Shown here: positions 9,568 through 32,278 of the stretch, piece after piece
Layout of the letters: each line of letters begins with the position of its first letter
Numbering within the stretch: the first letter of the stretch is position 1
IMG/VR virus record: IMGVR_UViG_3300021432_000030
Coordinates: 1-32,278 of that record
Reading direction: 5' to 3' (one strand)
From: a virus
Length of the DNA: 32,278 nt
Notes under the pieces: model-generated
What the model was told of the DNA's origin: nothing
What the model saw: only the letters and a program-made list of their open reading frames with translations
Database searches by the model: none
Made by a program: the position numbers and the translations under genes

Positions 9568-10809
9568 ATGCTAAACGTACAAATTTCGCAACAACACGTC
9601 AATCCTCAAGCTTTCGAGGTGTGCCGCGTCCTGAGCGCGGAAGGTTACCAAGCCTTCATCGTAGGTGGGTGTGTGCGCGACTTACTGCTTGGTCAAACCC
9701 CCAAGGATTGGGATATTACCACGGATGCTAGCCCGCAAGAAGTCATTGGATTATTTCCTAAGACCATTCCCACGGGTTTGCAGCACGGAACTGTCACGGT
9801 AGTGATGGGTCCAGGTGTCGAAAATCATTTCGAAGTTACCACCTTTCGCATCGAAGGAGAATACAAGGACGGACGACGTCCAGAAGAAGTCTTCTTTGTG
9901 CTCAATGTGGAACAAGACTTGGCAAGACGAGACTTGACCATCAACGCTATCGCCTACGACCCTATTGCAGATCGTTTAGTCGATCCTTATGGTGGATTAG
10001 AAGACCTACACAAAGGAATTATTCGAGCAGTTGGAAATCCAGAAACTAGATTCCAAGAAGACGGACTCCGAATCATGCGAGTTGCACGATTCGCCGCTCG
10101 TTTTGGTTATGCGGTGGAATCTCCTACTTTTACTGGAATGAAAAGCAGCCTTGAAACCTTGAAGAAGGTTTCCAAGGAACGTATTCAAGATGAGTTGTGC
10201 AAAACCTTGATGACGAAGGATCCTTCGTATGGGATTCAACTGCTTCAACAATCGGGTGCATTGGCAGTGGCTTGTCCATTCCTCTGTAGCCGAGATGTCT
10301 ATATGCACTTCTTGCCCTTCTTAGATAAATGTCAAGAGGAACTAGAAACTCGCTTGGCATTTATGTATGGCATGTGCCCAGTCGAACAGGTACAGGCAGA
10401 ACTGTTATTCTTAAAGTTTCCTAATAAAGAAATCAAAAGAGTCACTTTCTTACTGAGCCTTTTGGACAGGTATAATGAATTCCTTAAGAAGGACACGCCT
10501 TTGGCTTATAAGAGCTTTATGGCGGTCATTAAGAACCATGCCCCTGACCCCTGGGACTATACCTTTGACCAATTTATACGATTGACTGAGGCTATGGAAA
10601 TCAACTCTAGGGTGCAGTTCGGCAAATACGTTAGCGAAACTGTCTTCGCCAAGCGCGAAATGCAATTAAATGGAGACGATTTGCTGGTTATCGGCATCAA
10701 GCCGGGACCGCAAATTAAATCCATTTTGGAAGCTTGTTATTTGGAAATTCTGAGAAATCCGGACAACAATAACAAGAGCTTCTTGCTGGACTTCGCGGCA
10801 GGACAGTAG
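9568..10809 (+). CDS. cca: CCA-adding tRNA nucleotidyltransferase (class II)
   Basis: The enzyme adds or repairs the 3' CCA end of tRNAs using CTP and ATP. The 413-residue product has the class II head domain: GG-x-VRD at residues 33-38, the metal-binding pair in DWD (Asp47, Asp49), RRDLTINAIA at 120-129, and EDGLR at 164-168, matching the nucleotide-selecting motif D. The C-terminus (NGDDLLVIGIKPGPQIKSIL) also matches bacterial CCA enzymes and gives full length. That C-terminus and the EDxxR motif favour CCA addition over poly(A) polymerase. It is the only plus-strand gene, bounded by a divergent gap and a bidirectional terminator. Its third codon positions look richer in G and C than those of its neighbours, suggesting separate acquisition. 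The ATG has only a weak GGTGA upstream. Confidence 0.93.
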   Translation: MLNVQISQQHVNPQAFEVCRVLSAEGYQAFIVGGCVRDLLLGQTPKDWDITTDASPQEVIGLFPKTIPTGLQHGTVTVVMGPGVENHFEVTTFRIEGEYKDGRRPEEVFFVLNVEQDLARRDLTINAIAYDPIADRLVDPYGGLEDLHKGIIRAVGNPETRFQEDGLRIMRVARFAARFGYAVESPTFTGMKSSLETLKKVSKERIQDELCKTLMTKDPSYGIQLLQQSGALAVACPFLCSRDVYMHFLPFLDKCQEELETRLAFMYGMCPVEQVQAELLFLKFPNKEIKRVTFLLSLLDRYNEFLKKDTPLAYKSFMAVIKNHAPDPWDYTFDQFIRLTEAMEINSRVQFGKYVSETVFAKREMQLNGDDLLVIGIKPGPQIKSILEACYLEILRNPDNNNKSFLLDFAAGQ

Positions 10810-10872: not shown

Positions 10873-11886
10873 TTAGGCTCCGATTACGACAGACTTACGA
10901 CCTGCTGCGCAACCACGTGGGTTAACGATAGCAATACCGATGATCTCGGAAACTACCCATCCAAGCTTCAATTGCTTTGGCTCGTCTGCTGGTAGCACTT
11001 CAATGTCCTGTCTGATTGGCATAACACCAACGAACTCAGGGTCTGCGGCACCGTAGATGGTTCCTGGTGGAACGATCTTGGAAACCATGATGTCAGTACC
11101 CCAGATGTGGGCGTAAAGACCAGTTTGTAGAACTTCTCTCATAGTGACAGGATCGAAATCTCCGCCGCCTACGCCTTGTCCACCACCTGAACCCCACTTA
11201 AGGATATCAGTGAACTCATTGATGTTCATGAAGTACTTAGTAGTAACTAAGTCCCAACGATCAATTTGTTGCTTGATTTCGACAAGGTCTCTCTTTAGAA
11301 GACCTGCATCTGCGATGTCGGTTAGGACGTTTTCAACAGAAGCTGCTGCATCAAGAGCTGCGAAGATGTTAGCATCTTCCTGAGCCATGATTTCTTGACG
11401 AGCCTTCTGAACTGCTCTGTCAATTACGTTAAATCTACGTCTCTTAACTTCAGCGATTCTCACCGTTGGGTTTGCATAGATTTCGAATTCTGGAACGACA
11501 ACTCTGTCGCCGAATACTCTGGACTCTGGACCAGTACCGTTGCTTGAGATAACAACAGCAGCAACATCGATATCTCTATCGTAAGTTGGCATTGCACCTT
11601 GTGGTAGTGGGTCAACGACCAAGGCACGACGTGCGATACCGTGGTAATCCAAGTTTCTACGGATTGGGTTTGCCATAGCCTGAGCTAGAGCAATCTTGCC
11701 ATCTTGAGTCATAATAGCGCGAGAAATCAATTCATCGCGCTTATCATCACTTAGGGCAGTTTGTCCTGCAAGACCCATGTTAGATGGAGTGTTCTCTTCA
11801 AGAACGGCTGCATACTTAACAAGAGTTTGTAGTGCATCCTTAAGGGATGAGGCATTCATTTGGCCTTGGTTGCTAAACATATTCAT
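10873..11886 (-). CDS. Major capsid protein, HK97-like fold (inferred)
   Basis: I chose ATG 11886, preceded by AGGAG seven bases upstream, over a GTG at 11931. The 337-residue length suits an HK97-fold capsid protein. The pattern also fits: an N-terminal helical region, then AMANPIRRNLDYHGIARRALVVDPLPQGAMPTY (split here: AMANPIRRNLDYHGIAR at about residues 70-86), a strand VVVPEFEIYANPTV like the E-loop to P-domain transition, a long helix (NVIDRAVQKARQEIMAQED) resembling the spine helix, a glycine-rich loop (GSGGGQGVGGGDF) and a terminal beta region. The long structured leader, strong ribosome binding site and terminator after the gene suit a highly expressed product. The assignment is from pattern and context, not from a search. 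Confidence 0.75.
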   Translation of the reverse strand: MNMFSNQGQMNASSLKDALQTLVKYAAVLEENTPSNMGLAGQTALSDDKRDELISRAIMTQDGKIALAQAMANPIRRNLDYHGIARRALVVDPLPQGAMPTYDRDIDVAAVVISSNGTGPESRVFGDRVVVPEFEIYANPTVRIAEVKRRRFNVIDRAVQKARQEIMAQEDANIFAALDAAASVENVLTDIADAGLLKRDLVEIKQQIDRWDLVTTKYFMNINEFTDILKWGSGGGQGVGGGDFDPVTMREVLQTGLYAHIWGTDIMVSKIVPPGTIYGAADPEFVGVMPIRQDIEVLPADEPKQLKLGWVVSEIIGIAIVNPRGCAAGRKSVVIGA

Positions 11887-11927
11887 AAATCGTCTCCTAG
11901 TGGAATTATTTGCCAGTCTTACCAGCG

Positions 11928-11941
11928 ACACACTTGCGTGT
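11928..11941 (-). other. Small hairpin in capsid-gene leader
   Basis: CACAC and GTGTG flank TTGC, giving a 5-bp stem. It lies between the larger inverted repeat (11946-11978) and the ribosome binding site of the capsid gene. A role in transcript stability is possible but speculative. Confidence 0.3.
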
Positions 11942-20767: not shown

Positions 20768-21652
20768 TTACTTCTTAGAAGAAGATGATTTTGCCTTCTC
20801 TTTGGAAGCTTTATCTTTAGCAGCTTGAGCATCAGCCTTGTCTTTATCTGCTTTTGCTTTAGCCTTTTCCTTCTCTTTTTCCTTGGCAGCCTTATCCTTA
20901 GCGGATTGAGCATCAGCCTTCTCTTTTTCTTTCTTCTTCTTTTCGGCGGCTAGCTCTTTTTCTTTCTTTGCCTTGGCTTTATCCTTAGCATCGTTAGAAT
21001 CGCTCTTGCTCTTCTTAGAATCCTTGTCCTTCTTCTTGGCTTCAACAACCAAAGAAGCAAGCTTCAAACTGAATGCAGAAGACTTTTCCATACCGACAGA
21101 GTCAAGAGCTGCGGAAGCAGTCAATAGGCTGTCGATAGCAACATCAAATGCTGCGGAAGTTTCCAAATCATCTGCGCTAGAAGAATCGCTGGAGCTAGAA
21201 GATTCTTCCTTCTTTTTGCGAGCATCGTTATCATCTGCACTAGAAGAATCACCAGAGGAGTCCTTCTTTTTACGGGCGTCATTGTCATCCCAAGCGCTGG
21301 CTGAATCGCTGCTGGAAGAGGAAGAATCCTTCTTCTTACGAGCATCGTTGTCATCCCAAGCACTGGAAGAATCACCAGAAGAGTCTTTCTTTTTCTTGGC
21401 ATCTTGATCGTCCGCACTAGCAGAGTCACTCTTATCTTTTAGCCAAGGTGGCATCTTCTTTTTTGCTTCATTGTCATCTGCCATACCGGTGTCACCGCAT
21501 GAGCAAGCATCCTTGCCACACTTTGAACACTTTGCATCGTTTTCATCCGAAGCATATTTGTATTGGGTGCCGAACAAAGCCTTGTGCTCTGCGCTCTTTA
21601 GTACTGCATCCATGGTTGCAGCGACAAAATCTGATACACTTTTATTAGTCAT
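20768..21652 (-). CDS. Low-complexity repeat protein with Cys cluster, tandem paralogue 1 (294 aa)
   Basis: ATG 21652 follows AGAGGATACT. Residues 42-52 hold four cysteines (C42, C45, C50, C52) that could bind a metal ion. Residues 58-165 are about five tandem repeats of a unit like ADDNDARKKK plus a Ser/Asp run, some with Trp after the Ala. Residues 168-204 (AIDSLLTASAALDSVGMEKS) match the helical motif of the next two genes. The last 85 residues are almost only Lys, Ala, Glu, Asp and Ser. Most of the protein is probably disordered and strongly charged. Next to the protease/scaffold gene, it may be an internal, DNA-condensing or scaffold-associated protein; this is inference. The real frame was chosen by its ribosome binding site and operon spacing. 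Confidence 0.6.
   Translation of the reverse strand: MTNKSVSDFVAATMDAVLKSAEHKALFGTQYKYASDENDAKCSKCGKDACSCGDTGMADDNEAKKKMPPWLKDKSDSASADDQDAKKKKDSSGDSSSAWDDNDARKKKDSSSSSSDSASAWDDNDARKKKDSSGDSSSADDNDARKKKEESSSSSDSSSADDLETSAAFDVAIDSLLTASAALDSVGMEKSSAFSLKLASLVVEAKKKDKDSKKSKSDSNDAKDKAKAKKEKELAAEKKKKEKEKADAQSAKDKAAKEKEKEKAKAKADKDKADAQAAKDKASKEKAKSSSSKK
21158..21481 (-). repeat. Tandem Ser/Asp/Lys coding repeats
   Basis: About five imperfect units of 18-22 codons encode ADD-x-DA-(R/K)-KKK followed by Ser/Asp runs. They lie within the 294-residue protein. Unit number probably varies between related phages by slippage or recombination. Confidence 0.8.
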
Positions 21653-21678: not shown

Positions 21679-24060
21679 TTAGAAACTTCTCTTGGAAGTC
21701 TTAGAAAATGCTGCCGACAATTGTGCAAACATATCACCATCAGACTGTGGTGTGGTGCTTAGGTCACCAGAACCGATCATACCAACTTGTGGCATTCTTC
21801 CACCTTCCTTACGAAGGTTGGTTACTGGGTGTCTTGCAACAACTCTCTTTAGAGAATCGAAAGACTCGTCATTGAACTTCATGATTTCATCTACCTGGGC
21901 AGAAACTGCGTTTCTGTCGTGGTGACACAAACCACGGTCAACCATGTCATATGCTAGTTCGTAAGAACGTCCTAGCTTTACTCTGTACTTGTTAAGTTCT
22001 GCCTCAAGGTCTGCCTTGACGTGCTCCTTGACCAATTCACTGGCGAATTCTCCGCCACCTTCAGTCTGAGCCCAGTACTTCTTGTAGTAAGCTACTGCAT
22101 CCTTATCCAAACCTTCTGCTACTAGAGCGTCTAGGTCGGATGGGTGAAGCTTGCCTTCAGAGATTAGGTTATGGATAGCTTCTGCTTCCTTACGGACCTT
22201 TGGTGGAGCTTTTGCAAGATCCATCATAGCCTTGTTAACTTCTGGAAGAGTTTCAACATATCCTAGATTGTCAGATGGCTTGGTATCCAAGTCAGTTTGA
22301 CCATCAGTAAGCTTGTCAGCTTGGTCTAGCATGTCGCTAAACTTTTGCTTAGACATATCGGAGATTTCTCCGTCGTCTTGCTTGCCAAGAGCGTCAGCGG
22401 CTAGCTTGGCTCTCATTGCTTGACGACCTTCTTTGGTATCAAAAGATGCATGAGACATCATTGCTGGGTCTAGCATAGTTTCTGGCTTCAAATCACCGGC
22501 TTTAAGATCATTTGCATCATCTGCTGGCATGTCTAGTAAGCCCTCTAGTGCCTCGTCATGTGGCTCTTCGCCGGCATGAGCGTTGTCATCTGCCATAAGA
22601 CCATGGATAGCATCCAAATCTGAATTGGTATCGCTGATCATAGCCATTAAATCATCGCCATTGTTGGCGTCTTGTTCGCCTGTCATAGTCTCTCCCTCAG
22701 CTAATGCCTCTAGTTCTGCCTCGATTTCTGCACGCTTGACGATGGCAGTAGTACCACGGGCGTACTTCACAAATGCGCTCATCAATTTGAAACCATCTGC
22801 AATTGCAGTCTTGGCTTCGCTTAGTGCATCTTCAACGATAGAGCCAACGAACTCTTGGTTAGAGTCAGTTACTGCGCCCTTATCATATAATCCAGAAATC
22901 ATATTAAGTTCTTCAACATGATCGTTAATGGAAGCAATGGATTCTTGCATAGCGTGAGTTAGCGCGCCATTAAGTTCCTTCCTCAAATTGTTGAGTGTTT
23001 GTGTACTAAAGGAGGCTGAAGCACCCATTTCTGGAGCTGCTGCTGGTCCGCCTTCCATATCGCCCATTTCGGATTTCTCACCGACCATAGCCTTGACTGC
23101 TTCGTTAAGGTCGGAGCTAAGCTCGACACCCTTCTCTGCTAATGCAAGAGCTTGATCTTTTGGATCACCGGATTTACCAGTATCTTCGGCTGGAGGACCG
23201 GCATCGCCACCTGCTGGTGGAGCGCCTGCGTCACCGCCTGGAGCTGGAGGAGCACCGCCTGGAGCTGGTTGTCCACTCTTTACTAAGGAGCGAATCTTGT
23301 CTGCACCATGAGTCTTAATCTTCTCAATTAGTTTGCCACCGAATTCACGGGTTGCAATGCTGTCATGTAATACTTCAGCACGTCCACCAGATAGTTCATT
23401 GACAGAGGCAGTAAGAAGTAGCTTGTCACCAAGATAAACTTCCCAAGCACTATTACCTAGATTGGCAGTACCATCATTATTGGAAGCACGAACGAATCTG
23501 GCTATTAAACCAGCTCTACGTAGCATTTCCTTACGCTTTAACTCATCAGAGGTGTCAGCGGATTGTGGAGATGGATGAAGACCATCAACTGGACCAACAC
23601 CTGGGAAAGGCTTCTGTCCAACCATCTGCTTATCTTCGTGTTCACGAAGTACATACTCTAGTTTATCAACTGGGTATTTTGGTTTACCTGGAGTTGGGGT
23701 TCCTGGGTTGTTGCCATCACCATTTTGAAACCAAGCGGTTTTTTTGTTTTCAATAGTTCTCTTAGCTAAATCAACAATCGCTTGACGACGTTGGGCTCTC
23801 TCTTCAGACTCAGCACGAGCAAGCATCTTTTTACGCTCTAACTCATTAGACTGGTCAGCAGATTCTGGGGATGGATGCATACCATCGACTGGTCCTACAT
23901 CTGGAAATGGAGGTTGACCCACCATTTGTTTATCCTCTTTTTCACGGAGATGCTCTTGAAGAGGATCCTTTGGATATTTTGCCTGACCAGGGGTAGGCTC
24001 ATTAACGCCACCGGCGCCTTGGTAATAACCCTTTTTTACAGTTTCATTTGATCCAGACAT
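21679..24060 (-). CDS. Nested scaffold protein from internal start (predicted, 793 aa)
   Basis: An in-frame ATG at 24060 (Met396 of the 1188-residue protein) is preceded by AAGAGGAAAAT. This is as strong a ribosome binding site as those of the neighbouring genes (AGAGGATATC, AGAGGATACT). It falls exactly in a low-complexity linker (TSTTNKQEEN) after the protease-like region. The product would contain both 62-residue repeats and the acidic helical part but no protease. Nested scaffold genes read from inside a capsid protease gene are established in phage lambda (C and Nu3). Here the internal initiation is inferred from the sequence only. The codons GAG GAA also encode Glu-Glu, so the site could be coincidental. 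Confidence 0.5.
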   Translation of the reverse strand: MSGSNETVKKGYYQGAGGVNEPTPGQAKYPKDPLQEHLREKEDKQMVGQPPFPDVGPVDGMHPSPESADQSNELERKKMLARAESEERAQRRQAIVDLAKRTIENKKTAWFQNGDGNNPGTPTPGKPKYPVDKLEYVLREHEDKQMVGQKPFPGVGPVDGLHPSPQSADTSDELKRKEMLRRAGLIARFVRASNNDGTANLGNSAWEVYLGDKLLLTASVNELSGGRAEVLHDSIATREFGGKLIEKIKTHGADKIRSLVKSGQPAPGGAPPAPGGDAGAPPAGGDAGPPAEDTGKSGDPKDQALALAEKGVELSSDLNEAVKAMVGEKSEMGDMEGGPAAAPEMGASASFSTQTLNNLRKELNGALTHAMQESIASINDHVEELNMISGLYDKGAVTDSNQEFVGSIVEDALSEAKTAIADGFKLMSAFVKYARGTTAIVKRAEIEAELEALAEGETMTGEQDANNGDDLMAMISDTNSDLDAIHGLMADDNAHAGEEPHDEALEGLLDMPADDANDLKAGDLKPETMLDPAMMSHASFDTKEGRQAMRAKLAADALGKQDDGEISDMSKQKFSDMLDQADKLTDGQTDLDTKPSDNLGYVETLPEVNKAMMDLAKAPPKVRKEAEAIHNLISEGKLHPSDLDALVAEGLDKDAVAYYKKYWAQTEGGGEFASELVKEHVKADLEAELNKYRVKLGRSYELAYDMVDRGLCHHDRNAVSAQVDEIMKFNDESFDSLKRVVARHPVTNLRKEGGRMPQVGMIGSGDLSTTPQSDGDMFAQLSAAFSKTSKRSF

Positions 24061-25245
24061 ATTTTCCTCTTGTTTGTTTGTAGTAGAAGTGTTTGCTAAC
24101 TTGTCCAAGCTTTGTTTCATTTGGCTCAGCTTGGCTTCAATGGTTCTAGTAACCTCATGAAGTTCAGCAATAGGATCCACCCCTACTTCAGCGGATGCAT
24201 ATCTTGCGTGTGGGGGAGCCAATCCAGAATCAGCGGCTGGTATCACAGTACCTAGCTCTTGATTAGATGCCGTATCATTAGTAGTATCTTTTCCAGAATT
24301 TTTAATTTCACTCAATTTCTGAAAAGCTGCCTCGACGTCTTCTTTGAATTTAGCAAGGTCCGTCGCATTGACTGTAACTTGTGTGCTATTTCCACCTTCA
24401 TGTCCTTGAGGGTCATTTACAGTCAAAGTAGCTGAGTAAGTCAAGTCTGCTAGCTTGTCGAGTTCCTTTTGTTTGTTCTCGACATAAGTATTAAGGGTGT
24501 TAGCGGCAGCAATAATATGCTTGATATTAGCCTTTGGATCGGCTCCGTTAACAACAATGGATAATTCAAGTGGATTTAAATCTACGTTAATTTCACCATA
24601 GCAGCTCTTGCGGCGCATATGGTCACAGAAGTCTTGTTCCGTGCGGGCGACTCGGGCACAATCGGTGCAAATTGCTCTTCCAACAGCGGTACCCATGGAC
24701 ACGCAGCTAGAAACTCCAGTGGAGATTTGTCTTGCTAATTGAGGATATCCAGCCTTATCTAAAGCACATAAAGCTATAACTCTCTTAAGATTACGATCAT
24801 AGTAGGTATCAACAATAAAGCCTCTTACATGGTCAACCGAACTCGATTTATGATCCACGCAAAGAGGCTTACCCACCCACTTCTTATATGCTTTTACCAG
24901 TTCTTCCTCTGGAAATATATCTCCATTAGAATTCTTATAGGGTTTAACACTAGAGTCGTTGCTCATCCAGCGATAAGTACCACCAGATTTATCCCAACCT
25001 ACTTCTACCGTCTCTCCTCTAGCCGTTAGCTTAGGAGTCCCGTCGTCATTGAGGGCGGCTGCTTCAGCAGCATGCATCATAACAGCAGAGAAATATAAAA
25101 AGTCTTCTGCTTTAGGGGCAACCTTCTTAAGATTGATTGCAAACTTCCTAAAGTTCTCTAGAATTTCAGGACTCACAGCAGGGAGGCACGAATCCATGCT
25201 CTCTAACTTAATCTCCTGTGCTTCGCCTAGTTTAATAAATGTCAT
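21679..25245 (-). CDS. Capsid maturation protease-scaffold fusion-like protein (1188 aa)
   Basis: ATG 25245 follows GGGAG. The N-terminal 250 residues look like a herpes/phage-type prohead protease: GKPLCVDHKS with His132, RGFIVDTYYD at 141-150, and GVSSCVSMG with Ser183. His132 and Ser183 are candidate catalytic residues, with Asp236 or Glu227 as a possible third. C193-x2-C196-x10-C207-x-H209 follows and could bind zinc. Residues 260-390 are a linker with coiled-coil character. Two 62-residue repeats lie at 417-478 and 517-578. A further conserved-looking stretch (WEVYLGDKLLLTASVNELSG) lies at 601-620, then a Pro/Gly/Ala-rich linker and an acidic helical C-terminus, as expected of a scaffold. 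The known pattern is a protease that processes scaffold and capsid proteins inside the prohead. An internal start at 24060 may give the scaffold alone. Confidence 0.7.
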   Translation of the reverse strand: MTFIKLGEAQEIKLESMDSCLPAVSPEILENFRKFAINLKKVAPKAEDFLYFSAVMMHAAEAAALNDDGTPKLTARGETVEVGWDKSGGTYRWMSNDSSVKPYKNSNGDIFPEEELVKAYKKWVGKPLCVDHKSSSVDHVRGFIVDTYYDRNLKRVIALCALDKAGYPQLARQISTGVSSCVSMGTAVGRAICTDCARVARTEQDFCDHMRRKSCYGEINVDLNPLELSIVVNGADPKANIKHIIAAANTLNTYVENKQKELDKLADLTYSATLTVNDPQGHEGGNSTQVTVNATDLAKFKEDVEAAFQKLSEIKNSGKDTTNDTASNQELGTVIPAADSGLAPPHARYASAEVGVDPIAELHEVTRTIEAKLSQMKQSLDKLANTSTTNKQEENMSGSNETVKKGYYQGAGGVNEPTPGQAKYPKDPLQEHLREKEDKQMVGQPPFPDVGPVDGMHPSPESADQSNELERKKMLARAESEERAQRRQAIVDLAKRTIENKKTAWFQNGDGNNPGTPTPGKPKYPVDKLEYVLREHEDKQMVGQKPFPGVGPVDGLHPSPQSADTSDELKRKEMLRRAGLIARFVRASNNDGTANLGNSAWEVYLGDKLLLTASVNELSGGRAEVLHDSIATREFGGKLIEKIKTHGADKIRSLVKSGQPAPGGAPPAPGGDAGAPPAGGDAGPPAEDTGKSGDPKDQALALAEKGVELSSDLNEAVKAMVGEKSEMGDMEGGPAAAPEMGASASFSTQTLNNLRKELNGALTHAMQESIASINDHVEELNMISGLYDKGAVTDSNQEFVGSIVEDALSEAKTAIADGFKLMSAFVKYARGTTAIVKRAEIEAELEALAEGETMTGEQDANNGDDLMAMISDTNSDLDAIHGLMADDNAHAGEEPHDEALEGLLDMPADDANDLKAGDLKPETMLDPAMMSHASFDTKEGRQAMRAKLAADALGKQDDGEISDMSKQKFSDMLDQADKLTDGQTDLDTKPSDNLGYVETLPEVNKAMMDLAKAPPKVRKEAEAIHNLISEGKLHPSDLDALVAEGLDKDAVAYYKKYWAQTEGGGEFASELVKEHVKADLEAELNKYRVKLGRSYELAYDMVDRGLCHHDRNAVSAQVDEIMKFNDESFDSLKRVVARHPVTNLRKEGGRMPQVGMIGSGDLSTTPQSDGDMFAQLSAAFSKTSKRSF
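23512..23697 (-). repeat. 62-residue repeat, copy 2
   Basis: This encodes residues 517-578 of the protease/scaffold protein, with PTPGKPKYP, REHEDKQMVGQ, PFPGVGPVDG and HPSPQSAD as landmarks. It begins exactly 100 residues after copy 1. Confidence 0.85.
23812..23997 (-). repeat. 62-residue repeat, copy 1
   Basis: This encodes residues 417-478, with PTPGQAKYP, REKEDKQMVGQ, PFPDVGPVDG and HPSPESAD as landmarks. It starts about 20 residues after the proposed internal start, so it would lie at the N-terminus of a separate scaffold. Confidence 0.85.
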
Positions 25246-25248
25246 GCG

Positions 25249-25404
25249 TTATCTCCCTGATTTCTTCATCTCTGAAGGATCAGTTTCCTCTGATGTCTTG
25301 ACGACTTTCTTAGATAGATCACGAGCAGCTTTCTTTTGCTCTTCCGTCATCTCCTCAGTCTCAACAACTGATAATATTTTTCCGTCACCGTGTTTGATAA
25401 ACAT
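25249..25404 (-). CDS. Small charged protein (51 aa)
   Basis: ATG 25404 follows GGAGAG, and the stop at 25249 lies three bases before the protease/scaffold start. The product begins MFIKHGDGKILSVVE and continues with a Glu/Lys-rich helix (TEEMTEEQKKAARDL) ending in KKSGR. The binding site, start and tight spacing make it a convincing short gene. It is the first gene after a 117-bp gap and is probably co-translated with the protease. Its function is unknown; a small protein beside a prohead protease could be a regulator or internal head peptide, but nothing in the sequence proves that. Confidence 0.6.
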   Translation of the reverse strand: MFIKHGDGKILSVVETEEMTEEQKKAARDLSKKVVKTSEETDPSEMKKSGR

Positions 25405-25521: not shown

Positions 25522-26175
25522 TCAATTGCCAGGCTGTGAGGTTCTCTCCTTTATCATGTCATTTAATTGGTCTTGTCGTCTATTAAAAAGGTCCAAAATG
25601 AGTGGAGTTTTCTCCTGAACCTTCTCCTGTAACTCTTCACTTACGTTATCTACCCAACTAGTAGCCAAGATATTGTTCTGAATATGATTTTTGATTCTTT
25701 CATCAATAATCTCAGTAATATCATCGCATTGCTCTTGAATGGCCTCAATTTCCTTGACAACATTGGTGGCGAAGTCTTTCACTTCTAAATCATCAAAGAT
25801 GTCAGCAAACTTATTGACCTTGACTTCCAGATCATCAATAGCAGAGATAAAAGATTTCATTAGTTTGAGAGTCTGGGTATCGGAAGCGAAGTTCTGCATT
25901 ACGTTAACGCATTTAAAAGCTGTCTTCTTGAACTCATTAAAATTATCGATAGCCTTATCTCTGAAGCGTCTGATAGAAACTCTAGCCTTCATAACCTCTT
26001 CAGGAGACATTTCTGGGTTATTCTTGAAAGGTGTCTTCATAATGTTAAGATGGTCGGAAGCTAAATCCAACTGTTTCAAGGTGAAATTAAACAATATCAA
26101 TGCCTGTTGCGCCTGAGTCTTTTCAGCATCAGAAACATCATAGGTCATTTGTACTGCATACGCCTTCTTAATCAT
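25522..26175 (-). CDS. Helical protein of unknown function (217 aa)
   Basis: I chose ATG 26175, which overlaps the end of the phosphatase gene by eight bases and has GGTGG upstream. A longer frame from 26277 would overlap that gene by 110 bases. The product is almost all helix, with heptad-like spacing through residues 20-130 (LKQLDLASDHLNIM, FISAIDDLEVKVNKF) and a C-terminal helix near residues 185-215. It has no membrane segment and no catalytic motif. It ends at the 117-bp gap that precedes the protease unit. A coiled-coil structural or assembly protein is inferred. Confidence 0.5.
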   Translation of the reverse strand: MIKKAYAVQMTYDVSDAEKTQAQQALILFNFTLKQLDLASDHLNIMKTPFKNNPEMSPEEVMKARVSIRRFRDKAIDNFNEFKKTAFKCVNVMQNFASDTQTLKLMKSFISAIDDLEVKVNKFADIFDDLEVKDFATNVVKEIEAIQEQCDDITEIIDERIKNHIQNNILATSWVDNVSEELQEKVQEKTPLILDLFNRRQDQLNDMIKERTSQPGN

Positions 26176-26941
26176 AAATGAATCCACCATTGTTTTCCGC
26201 AGGTCCAAAGCCTCTGCCACCCGCATCATTATCGTAAACGCCGACCATAGGCACAACGTCTTCCTCTTGAGATTCATGCTCTTTTATTGGCTTGCCATGG
26301 TGATAATTCTCACGGGTTGGAGATTGATCAACCACAAAATTGTAAAGAGCATCTTGCGGATTCTGACGAGTAACATTCAAATAAGGCGCAAAAGAACCCT
26401 GATGTCCCTCATCCAAAAACGAGTCTCGATTATCACTAATGTATTCTCGTTCGTTTGAAACTATATCAGCATGATTAGTATCTTTGTCTTTGGCTGGCTT
26501 GCAAGCCTTAATTAGCTTCTCAAAAACATGAATAGGCTTAGGGTCAACATCCAAACCAAATCCCAAAGACTTAGCTTCTTCTAAAGCGTCTTCTGGACTT
26601 TTACCTAGATATTTACATTGAACTAAAGCTACTGCTAATCCAGTTCTATCTTTACCAGCCTGACAATGAACATAAGTGGGTCCGCCTTCTAACAATAACT
26701 CTTTTAAATCATGTTTCAGAAAATGCAATAGAGAGTGTTTAAAATTAGGATGACCAATAGGACATATAATATGTTTGATACCCAATAACTTAGTAGTCCT
26801 ATCAATTCTATCACCGGCTATTTTATCTAAACTGACTATTTTTTTAATGCCTAAATTTTCTTTCAACCAAAGAACATCCTTGGGAGACGGAGCGCTCCCT
26901 CGATACAGTTGGTCAGTTACCTTGCGAAGCCTGTGTATCAT
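26168..26941 (-). CDS. Tyrosine/dual-specificity-type phosphatase
   Basis: Protein phosphatases of this superfamily remove phosphate through a cysteine thiol in a HC-x5-R loop. Residues 92-101 read HCQAGKDRTG, giving Cys93 and Arg99. The form AGKDRTG is typical of atypical bacterial tyrosine or lipid phosphatases. Upstream, LYRGSAPSPKDV (12-23) and GIKKIVSLDK (31-40) fit the usual first strand and helix. No general-acid Asp is obvious in the usual place before the P-loop. The catalytic domain ends near residue 150; residues 150-257 are polar and probably disordered. The start ATG 26941 lies one base after the preceding stop. Its position among head genes suggests a packaged enzyme acting on host or virion proteins; the substrate is unknown. 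Confidence 0.8.
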   Translation of the reverse strand: MIHRLRKVTDQLYRGSAPSPKDVLWLKENLGIKKIVSLDKIAGDRIDRTTKLLGIKHIICPIGHPNFKHSLLHFLKHDLKELLLEGGPTYVHCQAGKDRTGLAVALVQCKYLGKSPEDALEEAKSLGFGLDVDPKPIHVFEKLIKACKPAKDKDTNHADIVSNEREYISDNRDSFLDEGHQGSFAPYLNVTRQNPQDALYNFVVDQSPTRENYHHGKPIKEHESQEEDVVPMVGVYDNDAGGRGFGPAENNGGFIYD

Positions 26942-30741: not shown

Positions 30742-32278
30742 TTAAGCTGGAGGTGCTCCGCCTGCTGGTGGAGGCGCTGCTGGAGGTGCTTCTCCGCCTC
30801 CTGGAGGGGCTCCACCTGGTGGTGGAGGTGGAGGAGGTGCTCCGCCTGGTGGCATTCCCATATCTAATCCTGGCATTGCTCCCGGAGGTGGAGGTCCGCC
30901 GCCTGGAGACTCACCTGGTAGTGGTGGCGCGGATCCTGGTGGAGCTTGACCTGGTGCCAATTCTGGTTCTGGAATTTCATCCTCTTCATCCAATGCACGA
31001 AGAGAGTTCAAATCCATGGCATCTAGTGCTACCGCTTCTTTTTTGTTAATAGCATTTTGGATAGCTTCTTTACGCATCTTTCTAACTTCGTCTTCGAATT
31101 CTAGACCCAAAGAACGATACAAAGTATGAATAGAAGCTCTCTTAGCAGGACCATCGCCCTGAGTAAGAGTTACCAAGCTATTGATGTAGTCGCCTGCATC
31201 AAACAAAGACATATGGTTCCAATCGATTTCTGGAACGATAAGTTGTTTCTCACCGCCTGAGTAATCGTAGAAGCCCTGAATCTTAGAGATTGGAGCAAAA
31301 ATCTTTCGCTTCAACCAAGTAGACATCATATTACGGAATTGCATGTAACGCTGACGAAGAACGTCAAGAGCCACACCACCGTTGGCATAGGTAGTGTCGG
31401 CGCCGCCATCCATTAGAACCGGTGGAACTTGCAAACCGACATAGATTTCCTTGATAATCTGAGTGATATCACCCGAAATGTCATAAATACCTTGACCATA
31501 ACCGACTCGCTCAACAGCAATACCGGCATGCGTAAAGATCTTGAAGTCCTTATCATATTGTGCTTCTTCAAATACATTCCTCCAAGATTCCAGGTCGGCA
31601 AAGGTTGGATGCAAACCATCGGCGCCATCGGTTCCAATCTTCACTAAAGTAAGTGGATTGATCATACCATCAGCCTGAGCATACTTAGATTCTCTTAGCT
31701 TGTCGAATAACATCAACTGACGGAAGATACAGACTGGAAGACCAGTGCCACGGATTTCGTAAGGGCTGATTCTACGAGCTAAATGAGACACATGGAAGTT
31801 ATCTAATGGAATATTCTCGCCACGCTTGACAGAGTCAATGATATGATTATTTAACTGCTTGCGCTGTTCAATATCAGTTGGACGATTAGAGAAAATGATT
31901 TTCTTAAGGTTTTCGTCGGGGCGTAACATAATGATAGGCTCATTGGCAACTACTGTACGCTTGACAATCATGTAGTCTGGATTCTGAATCAACAGACGGC
32001 TCCATTTACCACGGCTTTCATCAAGCTCAGCATAAACGAAAGATTCTCCAAGTAGCCAATATTCCTGGGCGATTTGCACGCAGATGTTCATCAAATCAAT
32101 TTCTTCAATCATATCATTGAAAAACTTTTCGATGTCCTTGTTAGGACACTTGATGTTAAGCTTACTAATTGGATAGGTGCTATGAAGATTGATAGCATTA
32201 TGCACGAAAGGATTCAAAGCATAAAAGCTTCGGCACCAAGCATTGATAGTAGCTCTATCTCGTGGTAAATTAAGATTG
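30742..32278 (-). CDS. Portal protein (partial, N-terminus outside window)
   Basis: The frame is open to the window edge with no convincing start inside. The most upstream residues read NLPRDRATINAWCRSFYALN, followed by PFVHNAINLHSTYPIS. This pattern is typical of portal proteins of large tailed phages, which form the dodecameric ring through which DNA enters and leaves the head. The body contains alpha/beta segments (YWLLGESFVYAEL, ISPYEIRGTGLPV, VGLQVPPVLMDGG) and the helix-rich stem expected of the family. The last 75 residues (DNA 30745-30975) are almost only Pro, Gly, Ala and Glu, an unusual disordered tail. A TTG-initiated frame at 32217 is not the true start, because the coding signal continues upstream. 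Confidence 0.8.
   Translation of the reverse strand, partial: NLNLPRDRATINAWCRSFYALNPFVHNAINLHSTYPISKLNIKCPNKDIEKFFNDMIEEIDLMNICVQIAQEYWLLGESFVYAELDESRGKWSRLLIQNPDYMIVKRTVVANEPIIMLRPDENLKKIIFSNRPTDIEQRKQLNNHIIDSVKRGENIPLDNFHVSHLARRISPYEIRGTGLPVCIFRQLMLFDKLRESKYAQADGMINPLTLVKIGTDGADGLHPTFADLESWRNVFEEAQYDKDFKIFTHAGIAVERVGYGQGIYDISGDITQIIKEIYVGLQVPPVLMDGGADTTYANGGVALDVLRQRYMQFRNMMSTWLKRKIFAPISKIQGFYDYSGGEKQLIVPEIDWNHMSLFDAGDYINSLVTLTQGDGPAKRASIHTLYRSLGLEFEDEVRKMRKEAIQNAINKKEAVALDAMDLNSLRALDEEDEIPEPELAPGQAPPGSAPPLPGESPGGGPPPPGAMPGLDMGMPPGGAPPPPPPPGGAPPGGGEAPPAAPPPAGGAPPA

Follow-up and report, generated by a model that had tools for sequence, protein, structure and literature searches.

The window analysed here is the whole of a virus record of 32.3 kb (32,278 nucleotides) and carries a head gene cluster on its minus strand. 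Within this cluster, downstream of the portal protein gene and upstream of the major head protein gene, lies a single open reading frame (ORF) of 1188 codons that runs from 25245 to 21679, exactly as a first-pass annotation made from the sequence had placed it. The ORF, its subdivisions and the neighbouring head genes are located as follows.

30742..32217, minus strand: portal protein (PHROG 16240, E 1.9e-45), upstream of the ORF in the head cluster of the same strand
25252..25259, minus strand: ribosome binding site (RBS) of the full-length protein, CAGGGAGA
21679..25245, minus strand: full ORF, 1188 residues; fusion of a prohead protease, a linker and a putative scaffold
24466..25245, minus strand: protease domain, residues about 1-260, with His132 and Ser183
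24061..24465, minus strand: variable linker, residues 261-395, poorly conserved with many insertions and deletions, acidic (net charge -10)
24065..24071, minus strand: internal RBS, AAGAGGA; purine-rich site kept in 86 of 86 representatives
21679..24060, minus strand: nested gene with its ATG at 24060; 793 residues, 85 kDa, pI 4.9; putative scaffold
23788..24027, minus strand: repeat 1, residues 407-486
23488..23733, minus strand: repeat 2, residues 505-586, 61% identical to repeat 1 (E 2.7e-32)
10873..11931, minus strand: major head protein (PHROG 2522, E 1.3e-77), downstream of the ORF

Several neighbouring genes deserve mention in their own right. The gene directly downstream of the ORF (20768-21652, minus strand) has the same AGAGGA start signal as the internal start of the protease ORF; its product, rich in Ser, Lys and Asp, contains repeats of a DNDARKKKDSS unit and a lysine-rich tail, and may bind DNA or belong to the core. 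The head gene cluster also includes a tyrosine/dual-specificity phosphatase-like gene (26168-26941, minus strand; PF13350, E 7.4e-8), which overlaps its downstream neighbour (25522-26277). The longest plus-strand ORF of the window (9568-10809) is a gene for a CCA-adding tRNA nucleotidyltransferase (PHROG 2244, E 9.5e-70) and adjoins the major head protein gene. No Rfam family was found at gathering scores. A copy 100% identical to the ORF is present in a record of 144,800 bases (L002, IMGVR_UViG_3300050821_010764), which would provide a wider genome context for the window.

The N-terminal half of the ORF resembles head proteases. Residues 1-395 matched PHROG families 18299, 'head maturation protease' (E 1.9e-14), and 2774 (E 5.7e-18), and the protease half aligned with gp19 of phage G, a protein annotated only as gp19 (hhalign E 3.3e-26). 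His132, within a DHKS motif, and Ser183, within VSMG, are invariant in all 36 aligned sequences including the window, suggesting that they form the catalytic pair; both residues, like Met396, occupy the positions in the translation that the first-pass annotation had given. The protease half matched no Pfam family above cut-off and the window protein matched no NCBIfam protease, while two intein-bearing relatives matched NCBIfam NF045541, a prohead protease/capsid fusion, far below the family cut-off. The predicted fold of the protease is of low confidence (pLDDT 61, pTM 0.40) and returned no Foldseek match at E<=0.001. When this low-confidence model was given a second look with VIA, T4 gp21 (Z 5.0) and herpes pUL26N (Z 4.3) appeared among unrelated rows, the best of which reached Z 5.8.

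Inteins were found in the protease of five relatives, four of them 373-376 residues long (L040, L042, L062 and L228) and one of 180 residues (L058). They are inserted after the residue aligned with window residue 106, inside the conserved KNSNGDIFP motif. The four long inteins match LAGLIDADG endonuclease and intein splicing models, and L058 matches splicing models only, as expected of a mini-intein.

The nested part has the same frame and the same stop as the protease ORF, in the window as in the 100 distinct ORFs described below. It is low in cysteine and aromatic residues (1 Cys and 35 aromatics in 793 residues), and its net charge of -45 is carried mostly by residues 831-1010 (net -30, pI 4.05). 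The long acidic tail noted at first is indeed acidic over this section, but charge is close to neutral across residues 1011-1188, of which the final 49 form a slightly basic stretch. The two repeats are likewise real, although each spans about 80 residues and the 62 residues originally given to them cover only the core. A strict repeat-core motif occurs twice in 31, once in 32 and not at all in 23 of the 86 representatives; the repeats drift, and we rejected them as a hallmark of the nested part. The structural model is mostly helical after the repeats, with low confidence (pLDDT 61, pTM 0.27), and returned no Foldseek match at E<=0.001. Sequence searches with the nested part yielded no PHROG family, no match in the PDB at E<=0.1 and, by tblastn at E<=1, no relative in named phages; a profile comparison with T4 gp22 found no similarity either. 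About 55 residues near its C-terminus weakly resemble gp21 of phage G, with an hhalign probability of 51% and an E value of 1.5e-4 that refers to a single comparison. Gene order, the adjoining protease, the scarcity of cysteine and aromatic residues, the predicted helices and analogy with known systems together suggest that the nested product is a scaffold.

We consider it very likely that this one frame gives rise both to a head-maturation protease-scaffold fusion and to a separately initiated scaffold of 793 residues. The reading frame would then yield two 3'-coterminal proteins. Initiation at 25245 would produce the fusion of 1188 residues, made up of an N-terminal serine protease of the head-maturation type, a flexible linker and the scaffold, and initiation at 24060, directed by an AGAGGA site in an A-rich, unstructured stretch, would produce the scaffold alone. 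In this simplest, lambda-like account, free scaffold, present in excess, would drive assembly of the shell. A minority of fusion molecules would join it through the scaffold part common to both products, bringing into the prohead a protease that would later cut the scaffold and itself. For the scaffold identity, the excess, the co-assembly and the cleavage, this proposal draws on gene order, on the protease family and on analogy.

It is distinctly unlikely that the nested protein is made but serves as an internal head protein or an ejected core protein processed by the protease. Such a role would suit its large size, its repeats and its lack of likeness to known scaffolds, and abundant inner head proteins are described for jumbo phages in the accessible part of PMC7411985. 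The position of the gene speaks against it, directly behind the head protease and between the portal and major head protein genes, as does the weak likeness of the 55 residues from the C-terminal region to gp21 of phage G, which is encoded two genes behind the G protease. In the T4 gene order that we read, the scaffold gene occupies a comparable place. The scaffold genes of lambda and Mu are found at comparable positions as well.

For the analysis of the internal start, relatives were taken from the best 80 of 128 IMG/VR loci in a first search (43-100% identity), from two further searches (best 80 of 242 and best 80 of 92) and from one contig of a metagenome-assembled genome (MAG). In total, 100 distinct ORFs contained both halves, the window included, and four further ORFs contained one half (two protease only, two scaffold only), each of them cut by a contig end. 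A protease and nested part encoded as a split gene pair was not seen among the relatives read (best 80 per search); the search that kept the best 80 of 242 used protease-half patterns alone, so split genes among those 80 would have shown. Reduction of the 100 ORFs to less than 90% identity left 86 representatives, window included, and the counts of 36, 40, 60, 62, 86 and 100 sequences in this work all include the window sequence. The identical copy L002 was merged as a duplicate among the distinct ORFs and left out of the site alignment and of the codon, Met-column and ATG-strength analyses. In the alignment around the internal start, 78 of 80 rows cover the site, the exceptions being L070 and L072. 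The one match in a genome, L160, belongs to a Chitinophagales MAG and may be a binned phage contig.

Upstream of codon 396, the DNA reads CAAGAGGAAAATATG, with AAGAGGA at 24071-24065 and the ATG at 24060-24058, just as the first-pass annotation had described. Its statement that this signal matches those of neighbouring genes is true of the genes at 21652-20768 (AGAGGATACTATG), 19259-17997 (AGAGGATAAAAATG) and 20505-20080 (GAGGAACCATG), but the other genes have different sites or no clear ones. Across 60 scored sequences, window included, an equally strong site precedes 14% of 2016 other in-frame ATGs, so that one sequence alone could not prove an internal start and the case is made by conservation: in a single sequence the signal is within chance, and across the relatives chance is rejected.

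In all 86 non-redundant sequences, an ATG preceded by a purine Shine-Dalgarno core occurs at the aligned place; the core was sought 4-14 nucleotides ahead of every ATG lying no more than 8 codons from that place. An ATG is also the best-scoring nearby start codon in 85 of the 86; in L185 the best is a GTG elsewhere, and the aligned ATG passes the core test. In L075, two adjacent ATGs follow the purine run, leaving the start ambiguous. Among 19 conserved Met columns, Met396 is the sole one with a uniform site (-5.98 +/- 0.08 kcal/mol), found in 58 of 58 sequences, which are those of the 62 representatives with a residue in this column. At Met columns 727, 854 and 964, strong purine stretches are also present, but patchily, in 67%, 86% and 81% of members, which indicates that Glu/Gly coding by itself produces purine sites, albeit with less uniformity. 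Over 60 nucleotides, the predicted folding energy of the mRNA averages -3.0 kcal/mol at the site, compared with -10.2 kcal/mol when codons of these genes are picked at random, and only 2.9% of positions are as open as the internal start site. At the full-length start, the window likewise has a strong RBS (-8.2 kcal/mol), and one of -5 kcal/mol or better was found in 64 of 73 measurable sequences when each was scored at its best candidate start no more than 6 codons from the aligned position. With strong sites at both starts, both products are expected.

There is a slim chance that the scaffold is expressed from its own internal promoter and transcript, in the manner of UL80.5, and not by internal initiation on the long mRNA. 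Some 220 nucleotides upstream of the internal ATG, at 24282, lies a block conserved at the nucleotide level with a consensus of about ACTAATnnnnnnGCATnTAATCAATC, and its core, AATnnnnnnGCA, is present in frame in 60 of the 86 representatives, where its codons are among the most fixed of the gene. This block also encodes a recurring peptide, however, and a search of the window that allowed up to 4 mismatches found it just once, so that it is not a repeated operon signal there. A promoter, an RNA signal and a conserved peptide are all conceivable roles for it. A separate transcript would use the same RBS, which makes this alternative compatible with the two products that we propose.

It is less probable still that the QEEN-Met sequence is a feature of the protein, for instance a self-cleavage site that releases the protease from the scaffold, and that there is no use of a second start. 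The most frequent form at this place is QEEN (43 of 86), and T4-type head proteases cleave on the C-terminal side of Glu. Against such a reading, divergent members replace QEEN with KDEQ, EETN, RETN, ESRD, NGDN or KKEDIDK, and the purine site and ATG stay; around the site, both the length and the letters of the linker vary between relatives. The first-pass annotation had proposed asking whether homologues keep AAGAGGA and ATG where the encoded Glu-Glu is free to vary, and the purine site and ATG were found in 86 of 86. Codon choice argues in the same direction. Of 62 representatives analysed, 60 have the site and 59 have Glu at the first Glu position before the ATG, with L075 having GAC there; the codon is GAG in 56 of these 59, versus a GAG use of 24% in the same genes. 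This share is the highest of 41 conserved Glu columns, the next reaching 58%, and in the three GAA cases (L033, L042 and L064) the purine run lies one codon earlier. The constraint thus acts on nucleotides, and the unusually unstructured mRNA at the site is a further point against a protein feature.

That only the fusion is made, with protease and scaffold travelling as one polypeptide like P2 gpO, a single protease-scaffold protein, and with the internal site unused, would suit the lack of a split gene pair among the relatives read but does not account for the conservation of site and ATG at the nucleotide level, and we regard it as highly improbable. The two-start anatomy and its conservation instead lead us to infer that the second start is used, a conclusion that the sequence data strongly support.

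A similar layout was encountered in actinobacteriophages. The protease matches 289 named records, including 209 from actinobacteriophages of Mycobacterium, Gordonia and Rhodococcus (near-copies included), and 18 regions among these 289 were read, together with T4 as a control. The actinobacteriophage relatives have ORFs of 852-1511 residues, each annotated as a single protein. Our set comprised 10 named phages and the metagenomic L232, and in all 11 of these genes an internal ATG with an RBS (-4.6 to -8.0 kcal/mol) is found 10-33 codons before a conserved RNDQG-type motif. In 8 of the 10 named phages, ATG and RBS fall at one alignment column, while Finch and Phrappuccino need an alignment shift. 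The residues encoded over the RBS vary (MKG, RKG, TRG, EKG, TRS, RKD), and in 8 of 8 tested cases the mRNA at the site is more open than 90-99% of random positions, in genes of 65-67% G+C. The case is weaker than that of the window clade, because an RBS of -5.3 kcal/mol or better precedes 29% of 216 in-frame ATGs in these genes and because the sequences, few in number, are not independent (Alice, Kamryn and Tonenili are close).

Myrna gp97, Alice gp90, E3 gp77 and Stormageddon gp13 thus share with the window a related protease N-terminus, a long fused tail and an internal ATG with an RBS. Their nested part spans 387-447 residues versus 793 in the window, and between the two there is no detectable similarity (hhalign probability 0.2%), a value that leaves homology of the nested parts of the two clades unsupported; a comparison of phage G gp21 with the actinobacteriophage nested part likewise found no similarity. 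In public annotations, Skog gp158 (L089) appears as a LysM-like endolysin, Myrna gp97 (L092) as a tape measure protein, in a note, and Alice gp90 (L083) as hypothetical. Sequence and position suggest that these three are head proteases with a nested tail gene, and a minor capsid gene adjoining the protease is common to these actinobacteriophages and Myrna according to the accessible excerpt of PMC7150772.

Other named relatives have a protease without the tail. PaBG, GR11A, RHEph12, BcepSauron, JA29 and Lu11 encode stand-alone proteases of 254-297 residues, indicating that the protease does not need the tail, and D69 has a protease ORF of 471 residues. In phage G, the protease gp19 (300 residues), gp20 and gp21 are separate genes. 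A protease tree places the window clade (support 93/99) and the actinobacteriophages (94/89) each in one group, with phage G beside them, and fits one or two origins of the nested layout; its long branches to D69, RHEph12 and BcepSauron are unreliable. It seems unlikely, though conceivable, that a protease-scaffold fusion accompanied by separate initiation of the scaffold is an ancient and widespread condition of this protease family and not a peculiarity of lambda and Mu. It would then predate the split between these jumbo phages, actinobacteriophages and phage G, would have broken into separate genes in G, and would be the bacterial counterpart of herpesvirus UL26/UL26.5, operating through an RBS and not a promoter.

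Annotation would have missed the proposed nested gene in one clade of large phages. Unexpectedly, the same would apply to the ten actinobacteriophage genomes that we read, whose ORFs of 852-1511 residues are now labelled hypothetical, protease, tape measure or endolysin. The layout is probably present and unannotated in actinobacteriophages, and with 209 of their records matching the protease, the nested gene may be common there. It would supply a candidate for the missing scaffold of these heads, including that of Myrna, whose capsid structure has been published (PMC7150772, in the accessible excerpt). The arrangement is also relevant to the question of whether herpesviruses and phages owe their protease-scaffold fusions to shared ancestry or repeated invention.

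Precedents for such an arrangement come from several systems. In lambda C/Nu3, an in-frame start within the protease gene gives rise to the scaffold, which has the same C-terminus as the protease; C is a ClpP/SppA-like protease, of a different family from that of the window, and Nu3 is much smaller than the nested part of the window. Among the named matches read, the closest protease is gp19 of phage G (33% identity over residues 34-236), where gp19, gp20 and gp21 are encoded separately. By eye, T4 gp21 has an N-x-N motif followed by His85 and Ser140, which we take to be its catalytic residues, in the same order and at similar spacing as His132 and Ser183 of the window; gp21 and gp22 are separate genes in T4, and neither gave a significant profile match to the window. 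An in-frame scaffold start inside a protease gene is described for Mu I/Z and proposed for gene 27 of PaMx73 in the accessible part of PMC4378225, where the putative PaMx73 start is codon 177 (Val), compared with codon 396 (Met) and a site constrained across 86 sequences in the window clade. For HCMV UL80, the accessible part of PMC9732275 gives an N-terminal protease (1-256), a linker and a scaffold (336-708) that is also made alone. This is the domain plan of the window protein, but UL80.5 arises from its own transcript, whereas the signal in the window is an RBS. In the open-licence literature, represented mostly by titles and the beginnings of abstracts, no description of this arrangement in jumbo phages or actinobacteriophages was found. 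The remark of the first-pass annotation that no example with this layout had been described was nevertheless too strong, as Mu and PaMx73 (PMC4378225) and UL80/UL80.5 (PMC9732275), as far as the accessible parts of these sources go, precede it. What is unusual here is only the size of 793 residues, the repeats and the protease family. The use of two starts is an already known trick, of which the window probably represents a new and very large case.
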